Source: Phlegmacium glaucopus (Eukaryota; Basidiomycota; Agaricomycetes; Agaricales; Cortinariaceae). From it: a DNA stretch of 56,153 nucleotides. Both the position numbers and the translations under genes were made by a program. Where the stretch lies: NCBI GenBank assembly GCA_015039465.1, contig MU130003.1, positions 1 to 56,153 on the forward strand. The letters run 5' to 3'. Positions 294 through 55,385 of this stretch are shown here, piece after piece. Position 1 is the first letter of the stretch. Each line of letters opens with the position of its first letter. The notes beneath the pieces are model-generated. The model saw only the letters and a program-made list of their open reading frames with translations. It ran no database searches and had not been told where the DNA came from.

Positions 294-1009
294 GGGCCGC
301 TTCCAAAATAGGTAATCAAATTCAAAGTCCGCTTATTTTCATGATGGCGACTTTTAAGCTTTCTTCTCACGCTACCAATCAGTATTGGTGCGCGACAACG
401 GCAACCAGGACTTTTCGAGGAATCAGGGCATGTGCACCAGGTGCTTGGGGTTCTGGTTCGGTTTGGCTCATTTTTGATACCCTCCCCTTCTATTACTTTC
501 TGCAGTATGTAGTACAAGTCTACCAATATGACCTATTGCACCTATCCTTTCCAGTGGGCTTTCAAAGTCAGAAACATCTAATTTGCAATTCTTCTAATAC
601 CTGAATACCAGTCTGGATAGTCATTGAGAGGACATATCTGAAGGCATGTGGCTGACATCCCTTTGGACACCTGGCCAACATGTTTTCACACATTTGGCTG
701 ACATCCCTACGAAAATGTGGTTCCCACTAGCCCTGGTTCCAAGGTGTCAAAAGAGGTTTTCTAACTATGGTTTCCAGCCCTCAATGATGGTCATATCCAT
801 GTGGGAAAGTGTCCAAAAACACATGACCACTGCCATGTTTTTCAATGATGACCGCATTTTTGTGGTGTATGATGCTGATGGGGACATAACCAACTCAAGC
901 ACTAAGTGCTAAGGTTCGATCAGATTTAGCATAAAGAGAAAGTAATATTCAACATTGTTATTTGTTTGCCCAGCTAACATTCAATAGGAGGTTTATGCAT
1001 CTAGACTTT
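294..1009. other. Intergenic, no supported gene
   Basis: No convincing exon is visible. The 14-nt string tggctgacatccct occurs twice, at about 648 and 693. A plus-strand frame at 646-912 is open for 88 codons but has no recognisable domain. The stretch lies downstream of NACHT copy 1 and probably includes its 3' untranslated region. Confidence 0.4.
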
Positions 1010-4000
1010 TCAGCAGCTAGCCTGCAACTTCTGGAAATGGTTGTACCACCTGAAATGCTGGAAGCAATCATACAAGTCATTTGGTCGCTCAGATCCAAGC
1101 CCCTAGAGACAAATTGGATATTGTGCATCAGTCATAATAAAACACTAACCTCTAGCCACTGGATAATAATAATTCCTGGTCCGGTGTCATTCGGCAAAAG
1201 GACCATTCGAGGAATTGATCGGAGTAGATAAAAAATCAGTTCAGTTGGAAGAGCATGGGAAATGTGTTCGCTGAAGCTCCTGTCCACAATGGTTTGATAA
1301 TCATAAAGACTAAAGGAAGAAAGTATAGCATACAAATACAATTAATATGTAGTCAAATCAGTGAGGAAAGTCCTCACCAAAAGCTGTACAGGTCCTGAAA
1401 AATTGTCCCCAGAGAGAATTCTGTAATTTGGGTATGGTAAACATCTGGGTTCATGTACAAGGGCCCAGATCTCTCTGGAGTTGTCATAAAGTCAGTAAAG
1501 GAAGAGGAAATTCTACCATTCACCGACTCCAGGACTAGGAGGTCCCAAGAAAGTTGAATGACACTAGGATTCACTGTCCTCCATGGTCGGGTCTCGGGAA
1601 TCATGTCAACTCCACGAAGAGGTGCACATATAGTAATAGTTTTCATGCTTCCATGTGATTCTATGCACAGGATTCCCCGATGGATCCTGTCTGTTATTTG
1701 ACCCAATCGTTCAATTAAATTGATGCTGGAAATGAAGACAGTTTCAGGCTGGGAAGTTGCATTAGAAAAGTCAAACCACAACATATGGAGCACACCTACC
1801 TCTACATCTTGGTCAAACCAATCTGCCCATCTCAAAATAGACCGGATAGTACACGCCGCCAGGGAAGACTTGAAATGTGACTGATGTGCATAACAATATG
1901 TGGTGGTGTCTAAATTATTGAGCAATTGTACAGCAGGGTGGTCACTGGGTATATTCCCAGAGAGTAAATCCTTAGTGGCATCGCACAAGTGCTGATAAAG
2001 ATTAGACCGAGCATATTCAAGGAGTTCATCACTGGAACTTCAAAAATCAGAAGATGTAAACTCAGATTGTATGGAAACCTACGAGTGAACATCAGAGGCA
2101 TTGGATCCATCCAGTAGAGACAAAAACTGACGGCAAATAAGAACGTTATGCAGTAGAGGATCACAGCAATAGAGATGAGAGCGACCTTGACCCCTGAAAA
2201 AAGCAGACAGATCGCCCTGCAACATATAGGACTGTCCTACCCGGACAAAAGGGTCAACGGCAGATTTAGAGAGGCGGTGGAATAGATCCATCTTAACCCT
2301 GTATAAGTCGGCCATCCCTTGCATGGACAGACCCTTCTGCACCACGACACCAGGTAGGAACTTGAGCAGGTCACCGATATCACTGAATTCGGTAAGGAAT
2401 CGATCAAGCATTTTTTGATACCCGTGATATACTCTTGAGAATTCGTCATCAGTGACTTCTGAGTGGATTTTCTGTTGGTTTTTGATCAGCAAAGTCAACC
2501 ACAATCGCAAAATGAGAATAATATCTAAACACACTTTGAAAATCCGCATTAGATAGAGCATTGCAGTGAAAAATACGTCAACTGCTCCACTATTTGAGAT
2601 TTTCCAGAACTCTTGGGTTAATTCATTGATGTCCGCCATAATTGTGTCCCTGACTGGTTTTGGAGACTCGATGAAATACCGTGAAAGATGGAACTTAACA
2701 TAATCCCATGTTTTACTGTGTGGAGGCCTGGTGGAATGGATCCTGTCATAGCTGTGAATCTAAAGGTTGGAGATGAATGAACCTCTTACCTCCAAGACCG
2801 TCCAATCCATTTAGTAATCAAGGCAAAGCTCCGTATAGTAGCCTGGTTGTGATGTTCCCGTTCATTGATATGGAATGGGCCCGAGCGACTAGAATCCACC
2901 AAAAAATCCCGAAATGAAGCATGTACGAAGTAAACAGGACCGACATCTGAGTCGCGCCATTCAGTCGAGTACTTCTCATTCTTATCTCCCACAAATGCAA
3001 TCAAGGACGACAGACCCTGTAGCACATGCTTCACTTCACCTTCCTCCATCTCGAGAATATCTTCAATCACTTCAGGTGTCAAAGTCTCAGCAAATGCCAA
3101 GATGATCCCAAGAACTTGGACAATGGTCGCTGTGCTTGGATAAACAGACAAGATTTGGGTGTACAATTGGTCAAGGTCTGAGAACGCCGTGGGATGAGGC
3201 ATCAATACAAGCTCAAGCCGTTTCGTTGGACTATAGAAATCGGCACCAACAAATTTGAGGACGGTCGCGGCGTAGATGAACTGGCCGGACGACCGTTGGA
3301 CAAGGAGATCGATAATGCCTTTAGCGGGCCATGGTTGTTTCACATGGGATAGAATATCGGCATGCTTGGTACAGATCTTGGCAAAGCCATCTTGCAGAAG
3401 CACCTGAATATCCTGTCCGGGATCGAATGTTTTGTCGAGGACGACTCTCTCGGTGATTGTGCACAGAGCTTCTTGGTCGAAACTGGCGCGGATATGAGAT
3501 TCAGGGCGACTCCCAATGAGAAATCTAAGCGGTAATTTGTGAGTCGTGATCGTTTTGCACAGGAGTTGGAGAATGTCCTGTTGGATCGCCTTGTCCTGGC
3601 ATTCATCCAATCCGTCTATGATCACAAGATAGGATCGTTGTAGAAGAGGTGATAAACATTGGAACGCATCGACAATGAGAGTTTGTAGTTGTACGGCAAT
3701 TGTCTTTGTATAGAGTTTTGGCTTTGCTTCCATGATGCGGTTGATGTGTTGACGTAATCCAGGTACATTCAGTGCGAGTTGATATGCAATTGTTGAGAAT
3801 AGAAAATGGCCTTGATCGCGGCCATCCTTTCCTCTGGAAAAGAAAAAGCTACCTCCAAAATTCTCATTGTCTCCGGATGAACTACACAGAAACTCTGCAA
3901 TTGCCTGGAGGATCGCTGTCTTCCCAGCGCCAGCAGGTCCATACAGCCAAAAGAAGGGAAGCGCCGAACCTTCGTTATGGATCCAGTCCAAAATAATCTC

Positions 4001-4254
4001 TCGAACGGCTATGCGGGTATTTGGGTGACAATTTGGTGCTGGGTAGCGTTCAGCAGAGTCATGAATTGCTCCATGAGAAACTGCTTGGCTCAAGCCTTGA
4101 AGTCCTTGATTTGGTCATTGATTAAGGATGGAACGAGAAGGATTGGAAATCGTGACATACCAGATTCCCGATCGTTAATATGAATATCGCCATTCGCTGA
4201 ATTGAATATACCCCCTTGGATGACAATTTCTTTTGCATTTTTGAATTGAGCCAT
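1010..4254 (-). CDS. NACHT-domain STAND NTPase, copy 1 (NLR-like)
   Basis: Predicted STAND ATPase of the fungal NLR type, a class used for self/non-self recognition. I model seven exons (minus): 4254-4161, 4104-2790, 2742-2083, 2031-1800, 1748-1378, 1309-1150 and 1102-1010, giving 974 aa in an unbroken frame. Order of parts: a 32-residue N-terminal motif (VIQGGIFNSANGDIHI), linker with HDSAERYPAPNCHP, Walker A GPAGAGKT, Walker B YLVIIDGLDEC, an IGSRPE sensor-like motif, then a C-terminal half of about 500 aa with no WD40, ankyrin or TPR repeats. A hydrophobic stretch (FFTAMLYLMRIFKVCL) opens that half. The C-terminal tail after GLGSERPNDLYD differs from the other copies. This copy is inverted relative to copies 2-5 and separated from them by four unrelated genes. 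Family call is firm; ligand and effector are unknown. Confidence 0.88.
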
Positions 4255-20981: not shown

Positions 20982-23900
20982 ATGACTCAATTTAAAAATG
21001 CGAAAAATTTAATCATCCAAGGGGGTATATTCAGTTCAGCCAAGGGCGACATTCATATTAACAATGGGGAATCTGGTGCGTCACGATTTTCAATCCTTCT
21101 CGTTCCATCCTTATCAATGACCAAATCAAGGATTTCAAGCCTTGAGCCAAGTAGTTTCTCATGGAGCAATTCATGACTCTGCTGAACGATACCCAGCACC
21201 AAATTGTCACCCAGATACCCGCATGGCCGTTCGAGAGATTATTTTGGACTGGATCCAGAATGATAATTTGGCGCTTCCCTTCTTTTGGCTTTATGGGCCT
21301 GCTGGTGCAGGGAAGACAGCGATCCTTCAGGCAATAGCAGAGTTTCTGTGTAGTTCATCAGAAAATTTTGGAGGGAGCTTTTTCTTTGCCAGGGGAAAGG
21401 ATGGCCGTGATCAAGGCCATTTTCTGTTCTCAACAATCGCATATCAGCTCGCACTGAAGATACCTAGACTACGTCATCGCATCAACCGTATCATGGAAGC
21501 AAATCCAACACTCCATACAAAGTCAATCGACGTACAACTACAAACTCTCATTGTTGATGCGCTCCAATCTCTCATTTTCGATGAGCTCCAATCTTTATCG
21601 CCTCTTCCACAACGATCCTATCTTGTGATCATAGATGGATTAGATGAATGCCAGGACAAGGCGACCCAACAGCACATTCTGCGTCTCCTGTGTGAAACGA
21701 TCACTGCTCACAAATTACCACTCAGATTTTTAATCGGGAGTCGCCCTGAATCTCATATCCGCGCTTGTTTCGACCAAGAAGCTCTGTATACGATCACCGA
21801 GCGAGTCGTCCTCGACGAAACATTCAATCCCGGACAGGATATTCAAGTGCTTCTGCAAAATGGCTTTGCTGAGATATGTGCCAAGCATGCTGATATTCTA
21901 TCCCATCTGAAACAACCATGGCCCGATGAAGGCATTATCGATCTCCTTGTCCAACGGTCATCCGGCCAGTTCATCTACGCAGCGACTGTCCTCAAGTTTG
22001 TTGGTGCCGATTTCTGTAATCCAACGAAACAGCTTCAGCTCGTATTGATGCCTGATCCCACGGCGTTCTCAGACCTTGACCAATTGTACACCCAAATATT
22101 GTCTGTTTATCCAAGCGCAGCGAACATTGTCCAAGTTCTAGGAATCATCTTGGCATTTGCTGCGACTTTGACACCAGAGGTGATTGAAGATATTCTCGAG
22201 ATGGAGGAAGGTGAAGTGAAGCATGTGCTACGGGGTCTGTCGTCCTTGATTGCATTTGTCGGAGATGACAACGAGAATTACTCGACTGAACACGACGACT
22301 CAGATGTCGGTTGTGTTTACTTGATACACGCCTCGTTTCGGGATTACTTGGTGGATTCAAGTCGCTCAGGCCCATTTCATGTCAATGAACAGGAACATAA
22401 GGACCAGGCTACCACACGGAGTTTTGCCTTGATTACTAAATGGATTAGAAGGCCTTGGAGGTAAGCGGTTTGTTCATCAATCTTATTCTCCATTTATTAA
22501 TTAGATTCACAACTATGACAGGATTCATTCCACCACCCGGCTTCCACACAGTAAAACATGGGATTACGTTGAGTTCCATCTTCCACCGCGTTTCATCGAG
22601 TCTCCAAAACCAGTCAGGGATGCAATTATGATAGACATTAATGAATTAACACAAGAGTTCTGGAAAATCTCAAATAATACAGCGGTTGATGTATTTTTCA
22701 CCGCAATGCTCTGTCTAATGTCGATTTTAAATGTGTGTTTACATATTATTCTCAGTTTTCGAGCACCGTCGATTATGCTGATAAAAAACCAACAGAGAAT
22801 CGTGTCACTAGTCACCGATGACGAATTCTTCAGAGTATATGATGGATATCAAAAGATTCTTGATCGATCCTTTACCGAATCCGGCGATATCGATGAGCTC
22901 ATGTTCCTACCTGGTGTTGTAGTGCAGAAGGGTCTGTCCATACGAGGGATGGCCGACTTATACATGGTTAAGACGGATCTATTGGATCGCCTCTGTAAAT
23001 CTACCCTTGAACCTTTCGTCTTAGGATCACCATCCTCGTATGTATTGCAGGGCGAACTGTCTACTTTCTTAAAGGATCGAGATCGATCCCGTCTCTATTA
23101 CTGTGATCCTGTACTTCATCATGTTCTTATCTGCTGTCGGTTTTTGTCTCTACTGGATAGATCCAATGCCTTTGATCTTCAGTCGTAGGTTTCCATACAA
23201 CCTGAGTTGACATCTTCTGATATTTGGAGTTCCAGTGGTGAACTACTTGGTTATGTTCGGTCTAACCTCTATCATCACTTGTGCTCTGCCACTGAGGCCT
23301 TTTTCTCTGGAGAAAATATACCAGGCCACCACCCTGCTGCACGATTGTTCAATAATTTAGACAGCACCACATATTATGATGCACTTCAGTCACGTTCCAT
23401 GTCTTCCCTGGCGGCATATACTATCAAGTCTGTTTTGAGATGGGCAGATACATTGAACGGTGGTTTGAAGGTGGGTGTGCTCCATATGGTGTGGTTTCAC
23501 TTTTCTAATGCGACTTGCTAGCACGCGACTGTCTCCATTTCCAGCATCAATTTAATCAAACGACTGGGTCACTTAACAGACAGGATCTATCGGGACATCC
23601 TATGCATAGAAACACATGGAAGCATGTCCACTATTACTACATGTGCACCCCTTCGTGAAGTTTACAGGATTCCCGACAGTCGACCACGGAGGCCAGCGAA
23701 TCCTGGTGTCGTTCAACTTTCTTGGGGCCTCCTAGCCGAACGGTCGATGGATGATAGAATTTCCTCTTCCTTTACTGACTTTATGATAACTCAAGAGAGA
23801 TCTGGGCCTTTGTACATAAGCCCAGATATTTACCATACCCAAATTACAGAATACTCTCTCGAGACAATTTTCCGGCGCCAGAACAACCGGTGAGTTTTCT

Positions 23901-25393: not shown

Positions 25394-28300
25394 ATGGCTC
25401 AATTCAAAAATGTTGTAATCCAAGGGGGTACATTCAATTCAGCCAAGGGCGACATTCAGATTAACAATCGGGAATTTGGTACGTCACAACCCCCCATCGT
25501 TATCGTTCCATCATTATCAAGGACCAAATCAAGGACTTCAAGTCTTGAGCCAAGCAGTTTCTCATGGAGCAATTCATGACTCTGCTGAACGCTACCCACC
25601 ACCAAACTGTCACCCAGATACCCGCATGGCCGTTCGACAGATTATTTTGGACTGGATCCATAACGAAAGTTCAGCGCTTCCCTTCTTGTGGCTTTATGGA
25701 CCTGCTGGAGCCGGCAAAACAGCGATCCTTCAAGCAATCGCAGAGTTTCTGTGTAGTTCATCCAGAAACTATGAGAATTTTGGAGGGAGCTTTTTCTTTT
25801 CCAGGGGAAAGGATGGCCGCGACCAAGGCCATTTTCTGTTCTCAACAATCGCATATCAACTCGCACTGAATGTACCTGGGCTACGTCAACACACCAACCG
25901 TATCATGGACGCAAAGCCAACACTCCATACAAAATCAATTGACGTACAACTACAAACTCTCATTGTCGATGCGCTCCAATGTTTATCACCTCTTCCACAA
26001 CGATGCTATCTTGTGATCATAGACGGATTGGATGAATGCCAGGACAAGGCGACCCAACAGCACATTCTTCGTCTCCTGTGCGAAACAATTACGGCTCACA
26101 AATTACGGCTCAGATTTCTAATTGGGAGTCGCCCTGAGTCTCATATCCGCACCTGTTTCGATCAAGAAGCTCTGTGCACAATCACCGAGCGAGTCGTCCT
26201 CGATGAAACATTCAATCCCGGAAGAGATATTCAGGTGTTTTTGCAAGATGGCTTTGCTGAGATCTGTGCCAAGCATGCTGATATTCTGACCCATGTGAAA
26301 CAACCGTGGCCCACTAAAGGCATTATCGATCTCCTTGTCCAACGGTCATCCGGCCAGTTCATCTACGCAGCGACTGTCCTCAAGTTTGTTGGTGCTGATT
26401 TCTATAGTCCAACGAAACAGCTTGAGCTTGTCTTGATACCTGACCCCACGGCGTTTTCAGACCTTGACCAATTGTACACCCAAATATTGTCTGTTTATCC
26501 AAGCGCAGCGACCATTGTCCAAGTTCTTGGAATCATCTTGGTATTTGATGCTGGGACTTTGACACCAGAAGTGATTGAAGATATTCTCGAGATGGAGGAA
26601 GGTGAAGTGAGGCATGTGCTACGGGGTCTGTCGTCTTTGATTGCATTTGTGGGAGATAAGGATGAGAAGTACCTAACTAAGGAGATTCATGCGTCAACGT
26701 TCGGGAGTGTTTACTTCATACATGCCTCATTTCGGGATTTTTTGGTGGATTCAAGTCGCTCAGGCCCATTCCATGTCAATGAACAGGAACATAAGAACAA
26801 GGCTACTATACGGAGCTTTGACTTGATTACTAAATGGATTAGAAGGCCTTGGAGGTAAGGTTTGTTCATCACTCTTATTCTGCAATCATTAGATTCACAA
26901 GTATGACAGGATCCACTCCACCACCCGGCTTCCACACAGCGCAACTTGGGGTTATGTTAAATTCCATCTTCCATCGCGTTTCATCGCATCTCCAAAACTA
27001 GTCAAGGACGCAATCATGACGGACATTAATGAGTTAACACAAGAGTTCTGGGAAATCTCAAATACCGGAGCAGTTGACGTATTTTTCACTGCAATGCTCT
27101 GTCTAATGTGGATTTTGGAAGTATGTTTACGTATTATTCTTAGTTTGCGAGTACCGTCGGCGTTGCTGATAAAAAACCAACAGAGAACTCTCCCACCAGC
27201 CACCGATTACCAACTTTTCGGAGTATTTCATGGGTTTCAAAAGATGATTGATCAATCCTTTATCGAATCCGTCGATATCAGTGACCTGCTCAGGCTCCTA
27301 CCTGGTGTCGTAGTGCAGAAGGGTCTGTCCATACAAGGGGTAGCCGACTTATACAGGCTTAAGATGGATCTATTGGACCGCTTCTCTAAATCTGCCCTTG
27401 AACCTTTCGTCCTACCAGAACGACCCTTCTATGTATTGTGGAACTATCTGTCTGCTTTCTTCATGGATCCACATCGATCTCATCTCTTTCACTGTGATCC
27501 TATACTGCATCATGTTCTTATTTGCCGTCAGCTTTTCTCTCTACTAGATGGATCCAATTTTCAGTCGTAGGTTTCCATACATTTGAATTCACATCTTCTG
27601 ATCTTTGAAGTTCCAGCGATGAGCTCGTTAACTATGTTCAGTGTAACCTCGATCATCACTTGTGCGTTGTCACTAAGGATTTTCACTCTGGAGAAAGTAT
27701 ACCTGGTGACCACCTTGCTGTACAATTGTTGAATAATTTAGACGGCGCCACATATTATGATGCACATCAGTCACGTCTTATATCTCCCCTTCTCACATCT
27801 CCCCTGGCGGCATATACTATCCGGACTGTTTTGAGATGGGCAGATACATTGAACTGTCATCTGAAAGTGGGTGTGCTCTATATGTTGTGGTTTCACTTTA
27901 TAATGCTACTTGCCAGCACGCGATTGTCTCCATTTCCAGCATCAATTTAATCGAACGACTGGGTCAAATTACAGACAGGATCTATCGGCAAATCCTATGC
28001 ATAGAAACACATGGAGGCATGACGACTATTACTATGTGTGCACCCATTCGTGAAGTTTACATGATTCCCGACACCCGACCGCGCAGGGCTGACATCGTCC
28101 AACTTTCTTGGGGCCTCCTAGTCGAGCGGTCGATAAATGGTAGAATTTCTTCTTTCTTTACTGACTTTATGACAACTCCAGAGAGATCTGGGTCCTTGTA
28201 CATGAGCCCAGATGTTTACCATACCCAAATTACAGAATACTCTCTGGAGACAATTTTTCGGAGCCAGAATATCGTTCGGTGAGTTCTTTTCTCTCCGATT

Positions 28301-30325: not shown

Positions 30326-33300
30326 ATGGCTCAATTCTCGAATGCTAGAAATGTTGTCATCCAAGGGGGTATATTCGGTTCAGCGAATGGCGACATTCAT
30401 ATCAACGATCGTGAGTTTGGTACGTCACGATTTCCAATCCTTCTCGTTCCATCCTCATCAATGACCAAATCAAGGACTTCAAGCCTTGAGCCAAGCAGTT
30501 TCTCATGCAGCAATTCATGACTCTGCTGAACGCTACCCAGCACCAAATTGTCACCCAGATACCCGCATGGCCGTTCGACAGATTATTTTGGACTGGATCC
30601 ATAACGACAGTTCAGCGCTTCCATTCTTTTGGCTTTATGGACCTGCTGGGGCCGGCAAAACAGCGATCCTCCAATCGATCGCAGAGTTTCTGTGTAGTTC
30701 ATCCGGAGACTACGAGAATTTTGGAGGTAGCTTTTTCTTTTCCAGAGGAAAGAATGGCCGCGATCAAGGCCATTTTCTGTTCTCAACAATCGCATATCAA
30801 CTCGCACTGAAGATACCTGGACTACGTCAACACATCAACCATATCATGGAAGCAAATCCAACACTCCATACAAAGTCAATTGCCGTACAACTACAAACTC
30901 TCATTGTCGATGCGCTCCAATCTTTATCACCTCTTCCACACCAATCCTATCTTGTGATCATAGACGGATTGGATGAATGCCAGGACAAGGCGACCCAACA
31001 ACACATCCTCCGTCTCCTGCGCGAAACAATCACAGCTCACAAATTACCGCTCAAGTTTCTGATTGGGAGCCGCCCTGAATCCTATATCCGCGCCTGCTTC
31101 GACCAAGAAGCTCTGTGTAAGATCACCCAGCGAGTCGTCCTCGACGAAACATTCAATCCCGGACGAGATATTGAGGTGCTTCTGCAAGATGGCTTTGCTG
31201 AGATATGTGCCAAGCATGCCGATATTCTATCCCATATGGAACAACCATGGCCCGCTCAAGGCATTATCGATCTCCTTGTCCAACGGTCGTCCGGCCAGTT
31301 CATCTACGCAGCAACTGTCCTTAAATTTGTTGATGCCGATTTCTGTAATCCAACGAAACAGCTCGAGCTTGTATTGATGCCTGATCCCACGGCGTTTTCA
31401 GACCTTGACCAATTGTACACCCAAATATTGTCTGTTTATCCAAGCACAGCGAACATTGTCCAAGTTCTTGGAATCATCTTGGCATTTTCTGAGACTTTGA
31501 CACCAGAAGTGATTGAAGATATTCTCGAGATGGAGGAAGGTGAAGTGAAGCATGTACTACGGGGTCTGTCGTCCTTGATTGCATTTGTAGGAGATGGGAA
31601 CGAGGAGTACTCGATTAAACACGACCATTTAGACGTCGGTTGTGTTTTCTTGATACATGCCTCATTTCGGGATTACTTGGTTGATTCTAGTCGCTCGGGC
31701 CTATTCCATGTCAATGAACAGGAACATGAGAACCAGGCTATTATACGGAGCTTTGCCTTGATTACTAAATGGATTACAAGGCCTTGGAGGTAAGCGGTTT
31801 GTTTATCACTCTTATCCTCCAGTTATTAGATTCACAACTATGACAGGATTCACCCCACCCCGCGGCTTCCACACAGTAAAACATGGGATTATATTAAGTT
31901 CCATCTTCCATGGCGTTTCGGAGCGTCTCCAAAACTAATCAGGGATGCAATTATGACGGACATTAATGGATTAACCCAAGAGTTCTGGAAAATCTCAAAT
32001 AGTGGAGTGGTTGACGTATTTTTGCCTGCAATGCTCTGTCTAGCGCAGATCTTGAACGTGTGTTTAGATATCATTCTCATTTTGCGAATTTTGTTGACTT
32101 TGTTGACTTTGTTGATAAAAAACATAAAAAACCAACAGTCAAGCCGGTCAGGAGTCATCAATGACAAATTTTCGAGAGTAGTATATGATGAGTGTCGAAA
32201 GATGCTTGGTCAATCCTTTACCGAATCCAACGATATCTGTGGCCTGCTCAGGTTCCTACCTGGTGTCGTAGCGCAGAAGGGTCTGTCCATGCAAGGGATA
32301 AACGACTTATACAGCAATAAGATGGATCTATTGCACCGCCTCCTTAAACATATCGCCCGGCTAGGACTATCCTTCGGTGTGTTGCAGGACTGTCTGTCTG
32401 CTTTCTTCATGGACCGAGATCGATCTCATCTCTATTACTGTCTGCACCATGTTCTTATTTGCTGTCAGGTTTTGTCTCTACTGGATGGATCCAATGCCTC
32501 TGATCTTCGATCGTACGTTTCCATACAATTTGAGTTCATCTTCTGACCTTTGAAGTTCCAGTAATGAACTCCCTAAATATGCTCAGGATAACCTCTATCA
32601 GCACTTGTGCGCTGCCACTGAGGATTTTCTCTCTGGCGAAAATATACCTGGTGACCACCCTGCTGTACAACTGTTCAATACTTTAGACAGCACCACATAT
32701 TATGACGCACATCGGTCATGTTTCATGTCTTCTCTGGCAGAATATGCTTTCCGGTCTGTTTTGAGGTGGGCAGATATGTTGAACCGTCATCTGAAGGTGG
32801 GTGTGCTCTATATATCGTAGTTTCACTTTTCTAATGCAACTTCCTAGCACGCGACTGTCTCCATTTCCAGCATCAACTTAGTTGAACGACTGGGTCAAGT
32901 AACAGACAGGATCTACCGTGATGTCCTATGCGTAGAAACACATGGAAGCATGCCGACTGTTACCCCTCGTAGAGACATGATTCCCGACATCCGACCATGC
33001 AGGACAGCGGATGCTGGTGTCGTTCAACTTTCTTGGGACCTCCTAGTCCAGGAGTCGGTGAATGATAGAATTTCCTCTGCCTTTACCGACTTTATGACAA
33101 CTCCAGGGAGATCTGGGCCCTTGTACATGAGCCCAGATGTTTACCATACCCGAGTTACAGAATACTCTCTGGAAACAATTTTTCAGTATCAGACCAACGT
33201 TCGGTGAGTTTCTTTCTCTGATTTGACTATGTATCAATTATACTTGTACTCTACTGGACTTTCTTACTCAACTGTTGACAGGCACCACGACATGGGGAAC

Positions 33301-47937: not shown

Positions 47938-50900
47938 ATGTCTGCTTCATCGAAACCCCAACTCACTACTGAGCAGATTCGGAAACTGCAAGCAAAGTTT
48001 ACTCGATTCCGTATCCTCGTGATCGGACGAGCCAACGCAGGCAAGACAACAATCCTGCGAAGGCTCTGCAATACTACAGGAGAACCTACGATCTTTAGTC
48101 CGAATGGTCAAATGGTGAGGTATATGGTGAAAGTTGATTCCAAATACTGACATCCATCCTCATGATCTCAGATCGAGTCCTCAGGCCTTAATCCGTCGAT
48201 AGGGGTAAGCGGTTCCTGTACTAGTATTGGGTTATGGTTCAGTTAATATCCTCACACTGCAGCGTGGAGGGCATGACATCAAGAATCAAATGGTATTTCG
48301 AAACAACCCTGGTTTTATCTTTCACGATTCCCGTGGTTTTGAAGCTGGCGGCGCTGAGGAGTTGAAGATGGTACAGGAGTTCATTAAGGAGCGTTCGAAA
48401 GCAAAAAAAGTGGAGGAGCAGCTTCATGCAATTTGGTGTGTTGGTACTCGGCTTTAGAGAACAAATTTCTTGACAGAATTGTTTTGGGGGTAGGTACTGT
48501 ATCCCAACGAGTGATGACCGACCAATCACAGCAGCAGAAAAGAAGTTTTTCAATGAATGTGGGACAGGGCTTGGTATGTGTGTTATTTTATCAACATGTT
48601 ACGTTGAAGGGTGAGTCTGTGAAGTACCAGTGATTATTTTGTGGACCAAGACCGACTCCCTTGATGTTGCGAAAATTAAGCAACTTATGAAGGAAGGTAA
48701 CAGCAAATCTGAGGCAATGCAACAAGCTCCGCAAAAAGCTTGGGCCGATTATGAAAGTAATATCTATCCGCTCTTTGATAGGTTTAAATATCCACCAAAG
48801 GCACATGTTGTATTTCGAAGTAAGTGTTATACTTGTTAATGATTATTTGGCTAATTGGTGGTATAGAGATGCATGAGCCTGGAGCTGATTGTAAAGACTT
48901 GATTGAAAAAACAACAGATGCATTGTCTAGTGAAGAATTGCAACAGCTCTTTCTTTCAGCACAGCAAAACAATATTGAAGTGTGTATTAAATATGGGCTT
49001 AAAAGGTTGGGAACTATGATATTTTTAAATTCCCACATTAATTGTAATTCCTAGAGTTTTGAATGAGAATCTGTTGAGACATTTTAAAAACAATGAAGGA
49101 CATTGGGCATATTTCATGGCAATTGTTCTGAGATATTTTCCACAAATTGTAGTATGTCTTTGACCAGTCTAAAGAAGCCATTGACAACTGATTAATTTTT
49201 ATAGTGTTATCTTGAGCATTTAGGGCTTAAGACTTTGGGCTAACATATATTGTGACAGTATGTGTGTAGGAAAAGAGTCACTATTATTGCTTATTACCTG
49301 AAATTTTTTGACAGATTGTAAGTGCAAGCCCATCTTGATCTGCCTTGACTCTAGCCTACTCTTTTGACAGGAAGTAAGTGCAAGGCAATCTTGATCTGCC
49401 TTGAACCTTGCTTACTTTTTTGACAGTCTGTAAGTGCAGGACATCTTGATCTGCCTTGTCTCTAGCTTACTCTTTTGAAAGATTGTAAGCATAACAATCT
49501 TGATCTGCCTTGACTCTAACTTATTCTTTTGAAAGGGGGTAATTGCAAGACAATCTTGATCTACCTTGACTCTAGCTTACTCTTTTGACAGGGGGTGAGT
49601 GGAAGACCATCTTGATCTGCCTGGACTATAGCTTACTCTTTTGACAGGGGGTAAGTGGGGGGAATCTTGATCTGCCTGGAGTCTAGCTTACTCTTTTGAC
49701 GGGAGGTAAGTGGAAGACCATCTTGATCTCCCTTGAATCTAGCTTACTCTTTTAACAGTTGGTAAGTGCAAGATAATTTTGATATACCTTGACTCTAGCT
49801 TATTCTTTTGACAGTCTGTAAGTATGACTGTCTGATCTATCTTGACTTTAGCTTATTCTTTTGACAGTCTGTAAGTGCAAGACCATCTTGATCTGCCTTG
49901 ACTCTAGCTTACTCCCATGACAGTGGGTAAGTGCAAGACCATCTTGATCTCCCTTGACTCTAGCTTACTCTTTTGACAGTGGGTAAGTACAAGGCCATTT
50001 TTATCTGCCTTGACCTTAGCTTACTCTTTTGACAGGAGGTAAGTGCAAGACCATCTTGATCTATCTTGACTCTAGCTTACTCTTTTGACAGGAGGTAAGT
50101 GGAAGACCATCTTGATCCACCTTAACTCTAGCTTACTCTTTTGACAGTGGGCAAGTGCAAGACAATCTTGATCTGCTCTGACTCTAGCTCACCCTTTTGA
50201 CAGGAGGTAAGTAGAAGACCATTTTGATCTATCTAGCTTACTCTTTTGACAGTCTGTGAGTGCAAGACCATCTTGACCTGCCTTGACTCTAGCTTATTCT
50301 TTTGACAGTTGGTAAGTGCAAGACTATCTTGATCCACCTTTCCTCTAGAGTTTACTCTTTAACAGCAGGTAAGTCCAAGGCCATGATCTGCCTTGACTCT
50401 AGCTTACTCTTTTGACAGTCTGTAGGTGCAGGACCATCTTGATCTGCCTTGACTCTGGCTTATTCCTCTGTCAGTCTGTAAGTACAAGACTATCTTGATC
50501 TGCCTTGACTCTAGCTTACCTTTTTTACAGAAGGTAAGTGCAAGACTGTCTTGGTCTGCCTTGACTCTAGCTTACTCTTTGGACAGGAGGTAAGTGCAAA
50601 CACAGAGAAGTCTCTATTATTCTGTCACCCTCTATAATCTGTTTGGACAGTATGTAGGTGCACCAATTATATCTTTGTTTCTACTTACCTAATTGGCATA
50701 TCTTTTGGACAGTATGTAAGTCAAACATGTAATGTTATTTACCAATTACTCCATGACCTACATTTCCCAACAGCAAGTATGTGCAACAATTTCTGATCTG
50801 TCTTTTTCTCTGCTTACCAATGTAATATATTTGCTTACAGATGGTAAGTATGATTACTTGTAACCTTTTGTATGATCTCTATAACGAATATCATTTGGTG

Positions 50901-51627
50901 ATCCTTTTTTTGCCTCATTCCCATCTCTGTATTGACTTTTTTTTATCCAGTTTTACAAATTCAATGTACAGGATTTCATCTCCAAAATTATGTCACCCAT
51001 TGTGAGTGTTTGCTCTTTGGAAATACACTGGCAGAGGAGTGGTTAATTTCATCCTTCCAATTTTTTCAAGCTTTCCAGCCTATCTACCAAATTCAACTTA
51101 AAAGAAACCACATACTGTGCAATTGGTATGCATCTGATTCAACTTTTTTTCCATATTCTCCATGATGATGATATTGACTGTTACTATTAGTTGCAGCTAT
51201 TATTGGCCACTTGTCTTTCTTTCTTCATCAAGAATCACCAAGTACCAAAAACTCTTTAGAAAGAGCTGCTCAAATTTATCAGCAATCAACTCATGATGCC
51301 TCTGTCAAGCAAGCAATTGAAAATCTTTTCAAAGGCTCTCATGTAAAGGGTCATGTCAAACATATATTCTCAAATCCTTTCAAGCATGTTGATGATGTCA
51401 ATTATGAATTACTGGTTGAGGAGGCTGTACAGACTGTGTTGAATAATCTCTTGTGTATGGATTCAATTTTTATTTGTTGATGAGTAGTACTAATTGGGAA
51501 CTATACCAGGGAAATAAGCCAATGCTCTGCTGCATACTTAAAATCCTCACATCCCTCTATGCAGATGACCAAAAACAGAAAAAATAATCTTGTGGGCAGT
51601 GAAGAAGAGCTCAGGAAGGAATGGTAG
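47938..51627 (+). CDS. G-domain (MMR_HSR1/AIG1-like) GTPase with micro-exon array
   Basis: P-loop GTPase of a type common in Agaricomycetes, role unknown. Exons: 47938-48114, 48172-48204, 48263-48435, 48494-48573, 48631-48819, 48867-49005, 49055-49148, [array], 50951-51001, 51071-51125, 51191-51452 and 51510-51627. Without the array it codes for 456 aa; with all 29 single-codon exons, 485 aa. G1 is GRANAGKT at 30-37, G3 is DSRG within FIFHDSRGFEAGGAEEL, and G4 is TKTD within WTKTDSLDV. The region after the G domain (RVLNENLLRHFKNN, RYFPQI, then FYKFNVQDFISKIM) leads to a hydrophobic AIVAAIIGHLSFFL segment and a helical tail ending ELRKEW. The array separates RYFPQI from FYKFNVQ, both in phase 0. 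Codon third positions are A/T-rich compared with the genes at 6-46 kb. Confidence 0.8.
49149..50950 (+). repeat. Tandem array of mini-introns with 3-nt micro-exon candidates
   Basis: 29 units. The triplet between a 3' splice site and the next 5' splice site starts at: 49259 TAT, 49315 ATT, 49371 GAA, 49427 TCT, 49482 ATT, 49536 GGG, 49592 GGG, 49648 GGG, 49703 GAG, 49759 TTG, 49815 TCT, 49868 TCT, 49924 TGG, 49980 TGG, 50036 GAG, 50092 GAG, 50148 TGG, 50204 GAG, 50253 TCT, 50309 TTG, 50366 CAG, 50419 TCT, 50475 TCT, 50531 AAG, 50587 GAG, 50651 TAT, 50713 TAT, 50774 CAA, 50841 ATG. Spacing is 56 bp in most units (range 49-67). A typical unit is GTAAGTGCAAGACCATCTTG, ATCTGCCTTGACTCTAG, CTTACTCTTTTGACAG. 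It thus has a consensus donor, branch-site-like TTGAC/CTTAC and a pyrimidine-rich acceptor. The intron length of 53 nt equals the other introns in the window. Exceptions: 49703 is preceded by CGG instead of CAG; 50148 is followed by a GC donor; 49482 and 49536 use AAAG acceptors. Whether the triplets are really included in mRNA cannot be seen from DNA. Confidence 0.9.
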
Positions 51628-52431: not shown

Positions 52432-55385
52432 CTAGCATTGATACTATATTTGAGAGAAAAATTAAGCAATTAAATAACAATGTGGAATACTGGTATAAGG
52501 GCCATACATACCTCTAGAAGCAAAATTTCTCCTGTTCCATATCCAAGGCATATTTTGGATGAGTGGTAGCTGACACATGTTGGCTTGCGAAAAGGTGATG
52601 GAATCCAAATGTTATGAAGGTTTATGGTATGGAAGATTGTGTCTTGATATATATTAAGAAATGATAACTGCAATGAGGGGTGAATTTTGCCATCAGCATG
52701 ATGGTGGATAAAAACACCATCAGGAATTGATGATAAAACAACTAATTGACTATTATCAGATAAAGATGGAACAAAGGTATGCCCATTTAACTTTGCCTTA
52801 CACTTTCCTGTTGCTGTATCCCAGATCCATGCAATGTTATCCTCAGATACAGACACAATATGCTTATCATTAGGAGAGAAGACAGCAGAGAAGACAGCTT
52901 CTGAATGCCCTTTCAGTTCTGCCTCACACTCTCCTGTGGCTGTATTCCAGATCCGTACAGTTTTGTCATCAGATGCAGACACAACACACATACTATCAGA
53001 AGAGAAGATAGCAGAGCCAACAGAACCTAAATGTCCTTTCAGCTCTGCCTCACATTCTCCTGTGGCTGTATTCCAGATCCTTGCAGTTTTGTCATCAGAT
53101 GCAGACACAATATGCATACCATTAGGAGAGAAGGCAGCAGAGCGGACCCATCCTGAATGTCCTTTCAGCTCTGCCTCACACTCTCCTGTGGCTGTACTCC
53201 AGATCTGTGCAGTTTTGTCATAAGATGCAGACACAATATGCATATGGTCAGGAGAGAATATGGCAGAGGACACCAAGCTTGAATGTCCTCTTAGCTCTGC
53301 CTCACACTCTCCCGTGGCTGTATTCCATATCTGTGCAGTATTATCATGAGATGCAGACACAATATACATACCATCAGGAGAGAACACAGCAGAGTAGACC
53401 CAATCTGAATGTCCTTTTAGCTCTTCCTCACACTCTCCTGTGGCTGCATTCCAGATCCATGCAGTTTTATCACTAGATGCAGACACAATATACATACCAT
53501 CAGGAGAGAATACAGCAGAGTAGACAACTCCTGAATGTCCTTTTAGCTCTGCCTCACACTCACCGGTGGCTGTACTCCAGATCCATGCAGTGTTATCATG
53601 AGATGCAGACACAATATGCATACCATCAGGAGAGAACACAGCAGAGCAGACAGTGTCTGAATGTCCTTTCAGCTCTGCCTTGCATACTCCTGTGGCCACA
53701 TTCCAGATCCGTGCAGTGTTATCATAAGATGCAGATACAATATGCATACTATCAGGAGAGAAGACAGCAGAGGAGACCCAGCTTAAATGTCCTTTTAGCT
53801 CTGTCTCACACTCTCCTGAGGTTGTATTCCAGATCCGTGCAGTGTTATCCCCAGATGCAGACACAATGTGCATACCATCAGGAGAAAACACAGCAGAGAA
53901 AACAGTTTCTGAATGTCCTTTCAGCTCTGCCTCACACTCTCCTGTAGCTGTATTCCAGATACGTGCAGTGTTGTCATCAGATGCAGACACAATATGCATA
54001 CCATCAGGAGAGAAGACAGCAGAGCGGACCCATCCTGAATGTCCTTTCAGCTGTACCTCACATTCCCATGTGGCTGTATTCCATATCCATGCAGTGTTAT
54101 CATTAGATGCAGATGCAATATGCATACCATCTGGAGAGTAGACAGCAGAGAAGACCCATCCTGAATGTCCTTTCAGCTTGGCCTCACACTCTCCTGTGGC
54201 CACATTCCAGATCCTTGCAGTTTGGTCAAAAGATGCAGATACAATATGCATACCATCAGGAGAGAATACAGCAGAGCCAACAATTCCTAAATGTCCTTTC
54301 AACTCTGCTTCACACTCTCCTGTGACTGCATTCCAGATCCGTGCAGTGTTATCACTAGATGCAGACACAATATGCATACCATCAGGAGAAAACACAGCAG
54401 AGTGGATAATTCCTGAATGTCCTTTTAGCTCTGCTTCACACTCTCCTATGGCTGTATTCCAGATCTGTGCAGTGTGATCATAGGATGCAGACACAATATT
54501 CATACCATCAGGAGAGAACACAGCAGAGCAGACAGTTTCTGAATGTCCTTTCAACTCAGCCTCACACACTCCTGTGATTGTATTCCAGATCCGTGCAGTG
54601 TTATCATAAGATGCAGACACAATATGCCTGCCATCTGGAGAGAACACAGCAGAGTGGACCCGTTCTGAGTGTCCTTTTAGTTCTGTCTCACACTCTCCTG
54701 AGGTTGTATTCCATATCTGTACAGTGTTATCCCCAGATGCAGACACAATATGCATACCATCAGGGGAAAACACAGCAGAGAAGACAGTTTCTGAATGTCC
54801 TTTTAACTCTGCCTCACATTCTCCTGTGGCTGTATTCCAGATCCTTGCAGTTGTGTCATCAGATGCAGATACAATATGCATACCATCAGGAGAGAAGACA
54901 GCAGAGCGGACCCATCCTGAATGTCCTTTCAGCTTTGCCTCACACTCTCCTGTAGCTGTATTCCAGATCCTTGCAGTGTTGTCATAAGATGCAGACACAA
55001 TATGTATGCCATCAGGAGAGAAGACAGCAGAGAAGACCCATCCTGAATGTCCTTTCAGCTCTGCCTCACACTCTCCTGTGACTGCATTCCAGATCCGTGC
55101 AGTGCTATCATAAGATGCAGACACAATATGCATGCCATTAGGAGAAAACACAGCAGACCCAACAATTCCTAAATGTCCTTTTAGCTCTGCCTCACATTCT
55201 CCTGTGGCTGCATTCCAGATTCGTGCAGTATTATCACCAGATGCAGACACAATATGCATACCATCTGGAGAGAACATGGCAGAGAAGACAACTCCTGAAT
55301 GTCCTTTCAGCTCTGCCTCACATTCTCCTGTGGCTGTATTCCAGATCCTTGCAGTCTTGTCATAAGATGCAGACACAATGTGCAT
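52432..55385 (-). CDS. WD40-repeat protein (possibly the C-terminal part of an NLR-WD40 gene)
   Basis: Exon 55385-52512 plus a 12-nt last exon 52443-52432 (YQC-stop) encode 961 aa counted from the first in-frame ATG. After 18 residues of a partial repeat come 20 full WD40 repeats of exactly 42 aa (residues 19-858), typically TGECEAELKGHSGWVFSAVF followed by SPDGMHIVSASYDNTARIWN. A divergent repeat and a tail of about 90 aa ending GTGEILLLE follow. Repeats 1-7 are nearly copied as repeats 8-14. Such near-identical WD40 arrays are typical of fungal STAND proteins of the HET-E class, but no NACHT is present. Upstream the same frame stays open to a good splice acceptor at 55436, so the true start may be in an upstream exon. 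The 20 repeats would make almost three seven-bladed propellers. Confidence 0.85.

Follow-up and report, generated by a model that had tools for sequence, protein, structure and literature searches.

Can a gene write part of its protein one codon per exon? The question is raised by a predicted GTPase gene in a stretch of 56,153 nucleotides (nt) of the basidiomycete Phlegmacium glaucopus (Agaricales, Cortinariaceae), hereafter the window, which is the start of contig C11 in a genome of 60.5 Mb. An earlier note on this DNA had read 29 triplets within the gene, separated by intron-sized spacers, as single-codon micro-exons. The analysis described here indicates that these triplets are very probably real single-codon exons, likely spliced stepwise, that build a hypervariable segment of the predicted GTPase. 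This reading draws on the phase-0 flanks, on variable triplets that avoid stops, on conserved splice sites, on a layout found throughout a gene family and on an unrelated intron in a distant paralogue (L059), and also, indirectly, on extra residues at the same junction in proteins that relatives encode on short contigs.

All 29 triplets, from the TAT at 49259 to the ATG at 50841-50843, lie in phase 0 between an acceptor and a donor, as had been claimed, with one exception on each side: 28 acceptors end in AG and one in GG (GACGG, before 49703), and 28 donors begin with GT and one with GC (after 50150). Among the 30 implied introns, 17 are exactly 53 nt long and the 28 internal ones measure 46-64 nt. 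The gap from acceptor to donor is exactly 3 nt in 29 of 29 cases, compared to the zero-length exon of a recursive-splicing ratchet, and the stretch 49149-50950 contains 25 copies of the strict pattern YAG-NNN-GTRNG, where 500 first-order Markov shuffles gave 0.3 on average and never more than 3. No Rfam match at gathering score was obtained in the window. Conceptual splicing with all 29 codons included yields a protein of 444 residues, and the frame stays open when all 29 are skipped.

The array is not confined to one gene, as had been supposed. A two-unit array consensus gave at least 1172 DNA matches in the genome and the GTPase exons at least 247, a match being in this case an exon piece and not a gene. 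Thirty-one places were scanned with a scoring matrix that leaves the triplet free, namely the window and 30 of 58 loci, the remaining loci overlapping these. They yielded 30 array blocks at 29 places with 988 units, 8-99 per block (median 27); nine blocks are cut by the end of the DNA examined, and none came from L026, which ends before any array, or from L042, where four units can be read beside 3548 N. An upstream exon was identified for 28 of the 30 blocks; every time it ended in phase 0, as described for the window, and most often it read CCACAAATT followed by gtRgtatgt. In 28 of the 30 blocks the same GTPase exon lies upstream, and in the other two, other exons of the gene, a count that covers the 30 blocks. 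The first two called codons include ATT or GTT in 28 of 30 blocks (micro-exon 2 in the window), and eight of the 30 arrays end in TAT ATG. At L043 (G000 C220:187500-195500) two blocks of apparently one array flank a GTPase copy of the opposite orientation; at L042 (G000 C220:118000-124500) the array is located behind the 3548 N.

Comparison of the blocks also bears on the 3' boundary of the array. The exon that follows it had been described as starting in phase 0 at 50951; the phase stood, the position probably not. The acceptor ATGTACAG followed by GATTTC was found in 14 blocks, the window included, and kept phase 0 in 14 of 14, whereas use of the next AG upstream, at a distance of 14, 21 or 23 nt, would break the frame in 12 of these blocks. 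In the window this AG lies 21 nt before 50972, so that both positions are in phase; the exon of the window gene probably starts at 50972 and, less probably, at 50951.

None of the 29 triplets in the window is a stop, as the earlier note had stated, and this avoidance extends to the family, in which a single stop was found among 988 triplets, compared to 95 expected (standard deviation (SD) 7.4, minimum 71; 5000 shuffles of each codon position). Shuffling within arrays gave 92 expected (minimum 70; 2000 shuffles), and counting only distinct triplets per array there was one stop in 399 versus 29 expected. By type, TAG was observed once against 58.6 expected, TAA 0 against 24.4 and TGA 0 against 12.2, while CAG (8 vs. 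8.7), AAG (25 vs. 31.1), GAG (83 vs. 52.4) and TAT (76 vs. 67.6) showed no clear depletion, and all 20 amino acids are represented among the 988 triplets. A side effect of splicing, by which stop triplets following CAG would create a second donor or acceptor, was considered and rejected, as TAT, likewise a good donor context, and CAG and AAG were not clearly depleted; because TAG is nearly missing while CAG and AAG, the NAGNAG-type triplets, remain near expectation, splice sites do not explain the absence of stops. Other gaps, a third-position C present only once in 988 triplets and the absence of ACG, GCG and TCG (0 vs. 53 expected, 30 blocks), are read as donor context and CpG loss. The sole stop, a TAG in L057, is flanked by good splice sites; the C-terminal exon of L057 also reads a stop, and L057 is perhaps a decaying copy.

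Retention of the splice sites was assayed at 545 junctions located by an intron-internal anchor of 36 positions, without using the splice sites and counting only exact 56-nt spacings; up to 12 mismatches in 36 were allowed, which lowers the measured intron diversity. The donor was GT or GC in 540 of the 545 junctions and the acceptor AG in 537. The AG and GT bases were substituted at 0.7-1.7%, compared to 2-21% over the anchor (mean 10.8%) and 10-16% at its five G positions. Among the ten exceptions listed are the TAG unit, whose sites are intact, and four apparent one-base register shifts, judged by eye. These figures support the view that the spacers behave as introns under selection to keep their splice sites.

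How such an array might be spliced is suggested by its geometry. An exon of 3 nt leaves no room for working spliceosomes on both sides at the same time, so the introns would probably be excised one after another, each excision making the next donor available. The ratchet points of recursive splicing likewise use an acceptor immediately followed by a donor in series and leave 0 nt (AG/GT); here, in contrast, 3 nt remain, and each step would deposit a codon, that is, one residue per removed intron of about 53 nt. A literature search on such ratchet points in combination with micro-exons gave no paper. Skipping of units, being frame-neutral, could multiply the isoforms, and a retained entry intron would truncate the protein. 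In the window, this intron reads VVCL and a stop (49149-49166), a similar VVC form is present in the related proteins P0001 and P0002, and P0002 ends in VVCV, as with the entry intron retained; a short isoform lacking the variable and C-terminal parts is possible.

Proteins of relatives offered an indirect view of the junction. The protein search reported 1657 entries and listed 120, and 44 of the 123 listed overall were examined, picked by length and source and not randomly. Three of them, each a single sequence, fill most of their contigs: P0121 (285 residues on 955 nt), P0026 (458 on 1727) and P0095 (543 on 1848). As the matching stretch of the window gene is interrupted by introns all along, we infer that these contigs are transcripts. 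P0121 carries KYFPNV, then about 49 residues from W to MY, then DLISLSKIMSPILS; in P0026, WFPH is followed by about 51 residues drawn from few kinds; and in P0095 an insert of 27 residues, absent from a Suillus hirtellus gene model, begins two positions after WFPHI. P0063, P0015, P0009 and P0088 look similar but occupy less of their contigs. In the annotated P. glaucopus protein P0006, 20 residues match the codons of the L045 array in order. Searches with the C-terminal part gave few relatives (two, then four, including P0122 and P0123), and P0122 and P0123 do not span the array junction.

There is a chance somewhat short of even that all micro-exons are constitutive, in which case there would be no combinatorial splicing and each gene would encode a fixed hypervariable segment, varied in the germline. 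The uniformly kept splice sites point in this direction, as do the three inserts of about 27-51 residues, which fall within the range of array sizes, and the codon strings, which already differ strongly between paralogues. On the other hand, the few units with weak or lost sites would be skipped, and the micro-exons of truffle nank genes are, in the accessible text of the papers cited below, reported as alternatively spliced.

The codons of the arrays are uncoupled from the introns between them. In the 28 blocks with at least six junctions, mean diversity was 0.645 for the triplets versus 0.179 for the introns, measured over the anchor, with intron values of 0.03-0.26 within individual blocks. 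Intron-codon pairs were compared within arrays using 612 of 958 intervals: in 38 pairs with identical introns the codon differed in 87%, at 53% of bases, and at larger intron distances codons mostly differed at about 65% of bases. Codon order was tested in the 25 best-flanked of 196 paralogue pairs, six of which were at least 2 SD over shuffles. Shared order reached 15 against 11.1 shuffled for L047/L049, 16 against 12.6 for L041/L056 and 13 against 10.6 for the window and L050, and part of this signal comes from the ATT start and the TAT ATG end that arrays have in common; the three closest pairs, with flanks 91-93% identical, shared no codon order beyond chance. Codon repeats within arrays were above chance (399 distinct vs. 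485 expected). Recent duplication of multi-unit blocks as the source of the arrays was rejected, being detected by intron similarity in one of 27 blocks with at least 15 intervals (L050); in L040, four codon-run repeats have introns only somewhat closer than background (7.3-10.2 vs. 12). Equal neutral drift of codons and introns does not readily fit these data. Diversifying selection with intron homogenisation could fit, as could mutation focused on the codons, neither being favoured; recombination among units would homogenise the introns, and selection or focused mutation would diversify the codons.

A distant paralogue, L059 (53-55% identity in two exon matches), has the same layout built from another intron. 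Its unit is 76 nt long; the 16 introns of 73 nt have a diversity of 0.010, 12 of them being letter-identical, and the 18 triplets have a diversity of 0.61, with no stop and with codons such as GGA, AGA, TAT, TTT, TGT and GCT. The core of this intron is unrelated to that of the 53-nt intron beyond the splice sites, as 606 of 1000 shuffles align as well. A further stretch, L060 (G000 C249, ~690-3001), corresponds to an L059-type array written in plain reverse order rather than as the reverse complement (88-95% over ~1350 nt), and this reversal extends to the 3' flank of such an array (94% over 103 nt); with its letters taken from end to start, L060 yields 25 codons without a stop. It is an assembly or data artefact, as no known biology makes such a reversal.

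An origin by introner-like invasion, in which mobile intron copies cut a pre-existing coding segment between every codon, would make the introns recent and the codon differences old. The likeness of introns across the arrays of paralogues, the weak dependence of codon identity on intron similarity and the rarity of multi-unit duplications all suit it. However, insertion would have been needed exactly every 3 nt in phase 0, an ancestral exon predicts the shared codon order that the closest paralogue pairs lack, and the excess of repeated codons within arrays is what duplication predicts, so that we regard this origin as unlikely.

Several observations weigh against translated single-codon exons. 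When all arrays are pooled and every codon type enters the count a single time, the deficit of stops shrinks to 1 in 40 versus 2.5, in a test without power. The transcript status of the jgi contigs is deduced from their size, and the contigs belong to relatives. Five of the eight P. glaucopus models examined (P0001, P0004, P0008, P0011 and P0060) end in the entry intron. P0006 omits four L045 codons, with donors GTAGTA, GTAACT, GCAAGT and GTAGGT, although a codon with a GTAGGT donor is kept elsewhere, and it seems to join the array codons to exons of the neighbouring gene L046; with this seeming fusion and the four omissions, P0006 may be a gene-finder product. Finally, about five of the 545 junctions have lost a splice site, register shifts discounted. 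Even so, the alternative put forward by the earlier note, one long intron of 1.8 kb holding an intron-derived minisatellite whose triplets are never translated, is very improbable: the array is a tandem repeat that can be skipped in frame and that public models such as P0001 and P0004 ignore, but an untranslated minisatellite gives no reason for avoiding stops, for retaining AG and GT or for triplets that vary much more than the sequence around them, as these do even next to letter-identical introns, relatives encode extra residues at the junction, and such an intron would be odd in a gene whose other introns measure 47-69 nt. The core reading of the earlier note, very probably translated single-codon exons with intronic spacers, is thus supported; its single-gene scope and its claim of novelty do not stand, and its 3' boundary probably does not.

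Table 1. Predicted features of the window, with positions counted from its first nucleotide; micro-exons are candidates.
Feature	Detail	Position	Strand	Basis
Exon 1	ATG, P-loop GRANAGKT	47938..48114	+	frame-checked splice; Arf above, MMR_HSR1 below Pfam cut-off
Exon 2		48172..48204	+	frame-checked splice
Exon 3		48263..48435	+	frame-checked splice
Exon 4		48494..48573	+	frame-checked splice
Exon 5		48625..48819	+	frame-checked splice
Exon 6		48867..49005	+	frame-checked splice
Exon 7	phase-0 end at RYFPQI	49055..49148	+	phase-0 end common to 28/28 blocks with exon found
Entry intron	110 nt; if retained, VVCL then stop	49149..49258	+	
Micro-exon 1	TAT (Y)	49259..49261	+	
Tandem unit	56 nt (53-nt intron + codon), 23.4 copies, 79% matches	49306..50599	+	Tandem Repeats Finder (TRF)
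Micro-exon 2	ATT (I)	49315..49317	+	
Micro-exon 3	GAA (E)	49371..49373	+	
Micro-exon 4	TCT (S)	49427..49429	+	
Micro-exon 5	ATT (I)	49482..49484	+	
Micro-exon 6	GGG (G)	49536..49538	+	
Micro-exon 7	GGG (G)	49592..49594	+	
Micro-exon 8	GGG (G)	49648..49650	+	
Micro-exon 9	GAG (E), degenerate acceptor GACGG	49703..49705	+	
Micro-exon 10	TTG (L)	49759..49761	+	
Micro-exon 11	TCT (S)	49815..49817	+	
Micro-exon 12	TCT (S)	49868..49870	+	
Micro-exon 13	TGG (W)	49924..49926	+	
Micro-exon 14	TGG (W)	49980..49982	+	
Micro-exon 15	GAG (E)	50036..50038	+	
Micro-exon 16	GAG (E)	50092..50094	+	
Micro-exon 17	TGG (W), GC donor	50148..50150	+	
Micro-exon 18	GAG (E)	50204..50206	+	
Micro-exon 19	TCT (S)	50253..50255	+	
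Micro-exon 20	TTG (L)	50309..50311	+	
Micro-exon 21	CAG (Q)	50366..50368	+	
Micro-exon 22	TCT (S)	50419..50421	+	
Micro-exon 23	TCT (S)	50475..50477	+	
Micro-exon 24	AAG (K)	50531..50533	+	
Micro-exon 25	GAG (E)	50587..50589	+	
Micro-exon 26	TAT (Y)	50651..50653	+	
Micro-exon 27	TAT (Y)	50713..50715	+	
Micro-exon 28	CAA (Q)	50774..50776	+	
Micro-exon 29	ATG (M)	50841..50843	+	
Exit intron	128 nt if the acceptor is ATGTACAG	50844..50971	+	
First post-array exon	DFISKIMSPI; probable corrected start	50972..51001	+	acceptor phase across blocks; junction in P0006
Downstream exon	LSSLSTKFNLKETTYCAI	51071..51125	+	
C-terminal exon	hydrophobic, possibly membrane segment VAAIIGHLSFFL	51191..51454	+	
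Last exon	W K stop at end (P0121 of relative ends WKY)	51510..51517	+	
WD40 open reading frame (ORF)	971 residues, 20 WD40 stretches, 126-bp tandem array with 83% matches, adjoins GTPase gene	52470-55385	-	Pfam
NPHP3_N/NACHT ORF		2789-4093	-	Pfam
NPHP3_N/NACHT ORF		21142-22461	+	Pfam
NPHP3_N/NACHT ORF		25476-26855	+	Pfam
NPHP3_N/NACHT ORF		30486-31790	+	Pfam

In the conceptual protein with all array codons, the Pfam score for Arf was 23.0, above the cut-off of 22.3, and that for MMR_HSR1 was 20.2, below the cut-off of 21.9; Pfam detected no NACHT or ANK domain in it. A sequence search of solved structures gave five GTPase sequences of general kinds (Der, EngA, HflX and Arl3). In the AlphaFold2 model of P0026, the GTPase domain was mostly confident (most blocks 86-98), the variable stretch 301-349 was a low-confidence helix (46-56) and the C-terminal part was helical (64-81). 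Foldseek with this model placed the bacterial dynamin-like protein BDLP, GM4951 and Irga6 first by E-value among the 50 rows shown; with query-normalised template-modelling scores of 0.20-0.36, kinship of the modelled protein to IRG/dynamin-like GTPases is only a hint.

The Pfam search of the window was made with six ORFs, and the window looks like a cluster of NOD-like receptor (NLR) genes. This immune-type neighbourhood is compatible with a recognition role of the GTPase, without being proof of it, and the four NACHT ORFs together with the WD40 repeat ORF would suit a role in non-self recognition. A more ambitious proposal, which we hold only tentatively and think more likely wrong than right, is that of a codon-cassette system: the introns would serve as a scaffold for recombination and splicing, and the codons as hypervariable cassettes, reshuffled or hypermutated in the genome and selected anew at splicing, so that an expanded immune-type GTPase family would gain a vast recognition repertoire. 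Such a system would have emerged in Basidiomycota, or been taken up again there, without connection to the truffle NLR genes, and one site would have received at least two intron units unrelated to each other.

The earlier note knew of no described system of this kind, yet there is one. As far as the accessible text of the papers goes, the nank genes of Tuber melanosporum, which encode NACHT-ANK NLRs, contain dozens of 3-bp exons (PMC4986451, PMC10197012, PMC3689799, PMC9815663), credited to Iotti et al. 2012 in PMC4986451, PMC3689799 and PMC9815663. Shared with nank are dozens of codon-sized exons, an expanded fungal gene family and a likely recognition region that is diversified. Unlike nank, a NACHT-ankyrin family of Ascomycota with reported alternative splicing, the present case concerns a basidiomycete GTPase with at least 30 blocks, known from sequence alone. 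What is new with respect to the truffle genes is the phylum, the gene family, the scale and the uncoupling of codons from introns. Fungal introner-like elements, judging from the portion of PMC4457414 available, also place many similar introns at many sites of one genome, whereas here the introns are in tandem, every 3 nt and in phase 0, and 28 blocks share one site in one family. The WD40, TPR and ANK repeats of fungal NLRs, according to the available parts of PMC4986451 and PMC9815663, are likewise near-identical repeats with hypervariable positions, likely used in non-self recognition, and the WD40 ORF of the window resembles their high-identity WD40 repeats; there the repeat is the coding unit, whereas here it is the intron, and the variable codon is the sole coding part. 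Micro-exons in basidiomycete P450 genes are the subject of a further listing (PMC1184071). No array of codon-sized exons in a basidiomycete or in a GTPase was found in the literature searched, most subscription papers being outside its scope.

If the single-codon reading is true, this fungus encodes variable protein segments with a separate exon for every codon, and the sampled part of its genome holds nearly a thousand candidates for such exons. It would make testable the splicing of 3-nt exons in long series, combinatorial choice among them, and near-saturated codon change beside near letter-identical introns. The number of P. glaucopus models that end in the entry intron suggests that annotation misses such arrays, and the truffle case, rather than a curiosity, may be one instance of a way of diversifying recognition proteins that recurs in fungi.

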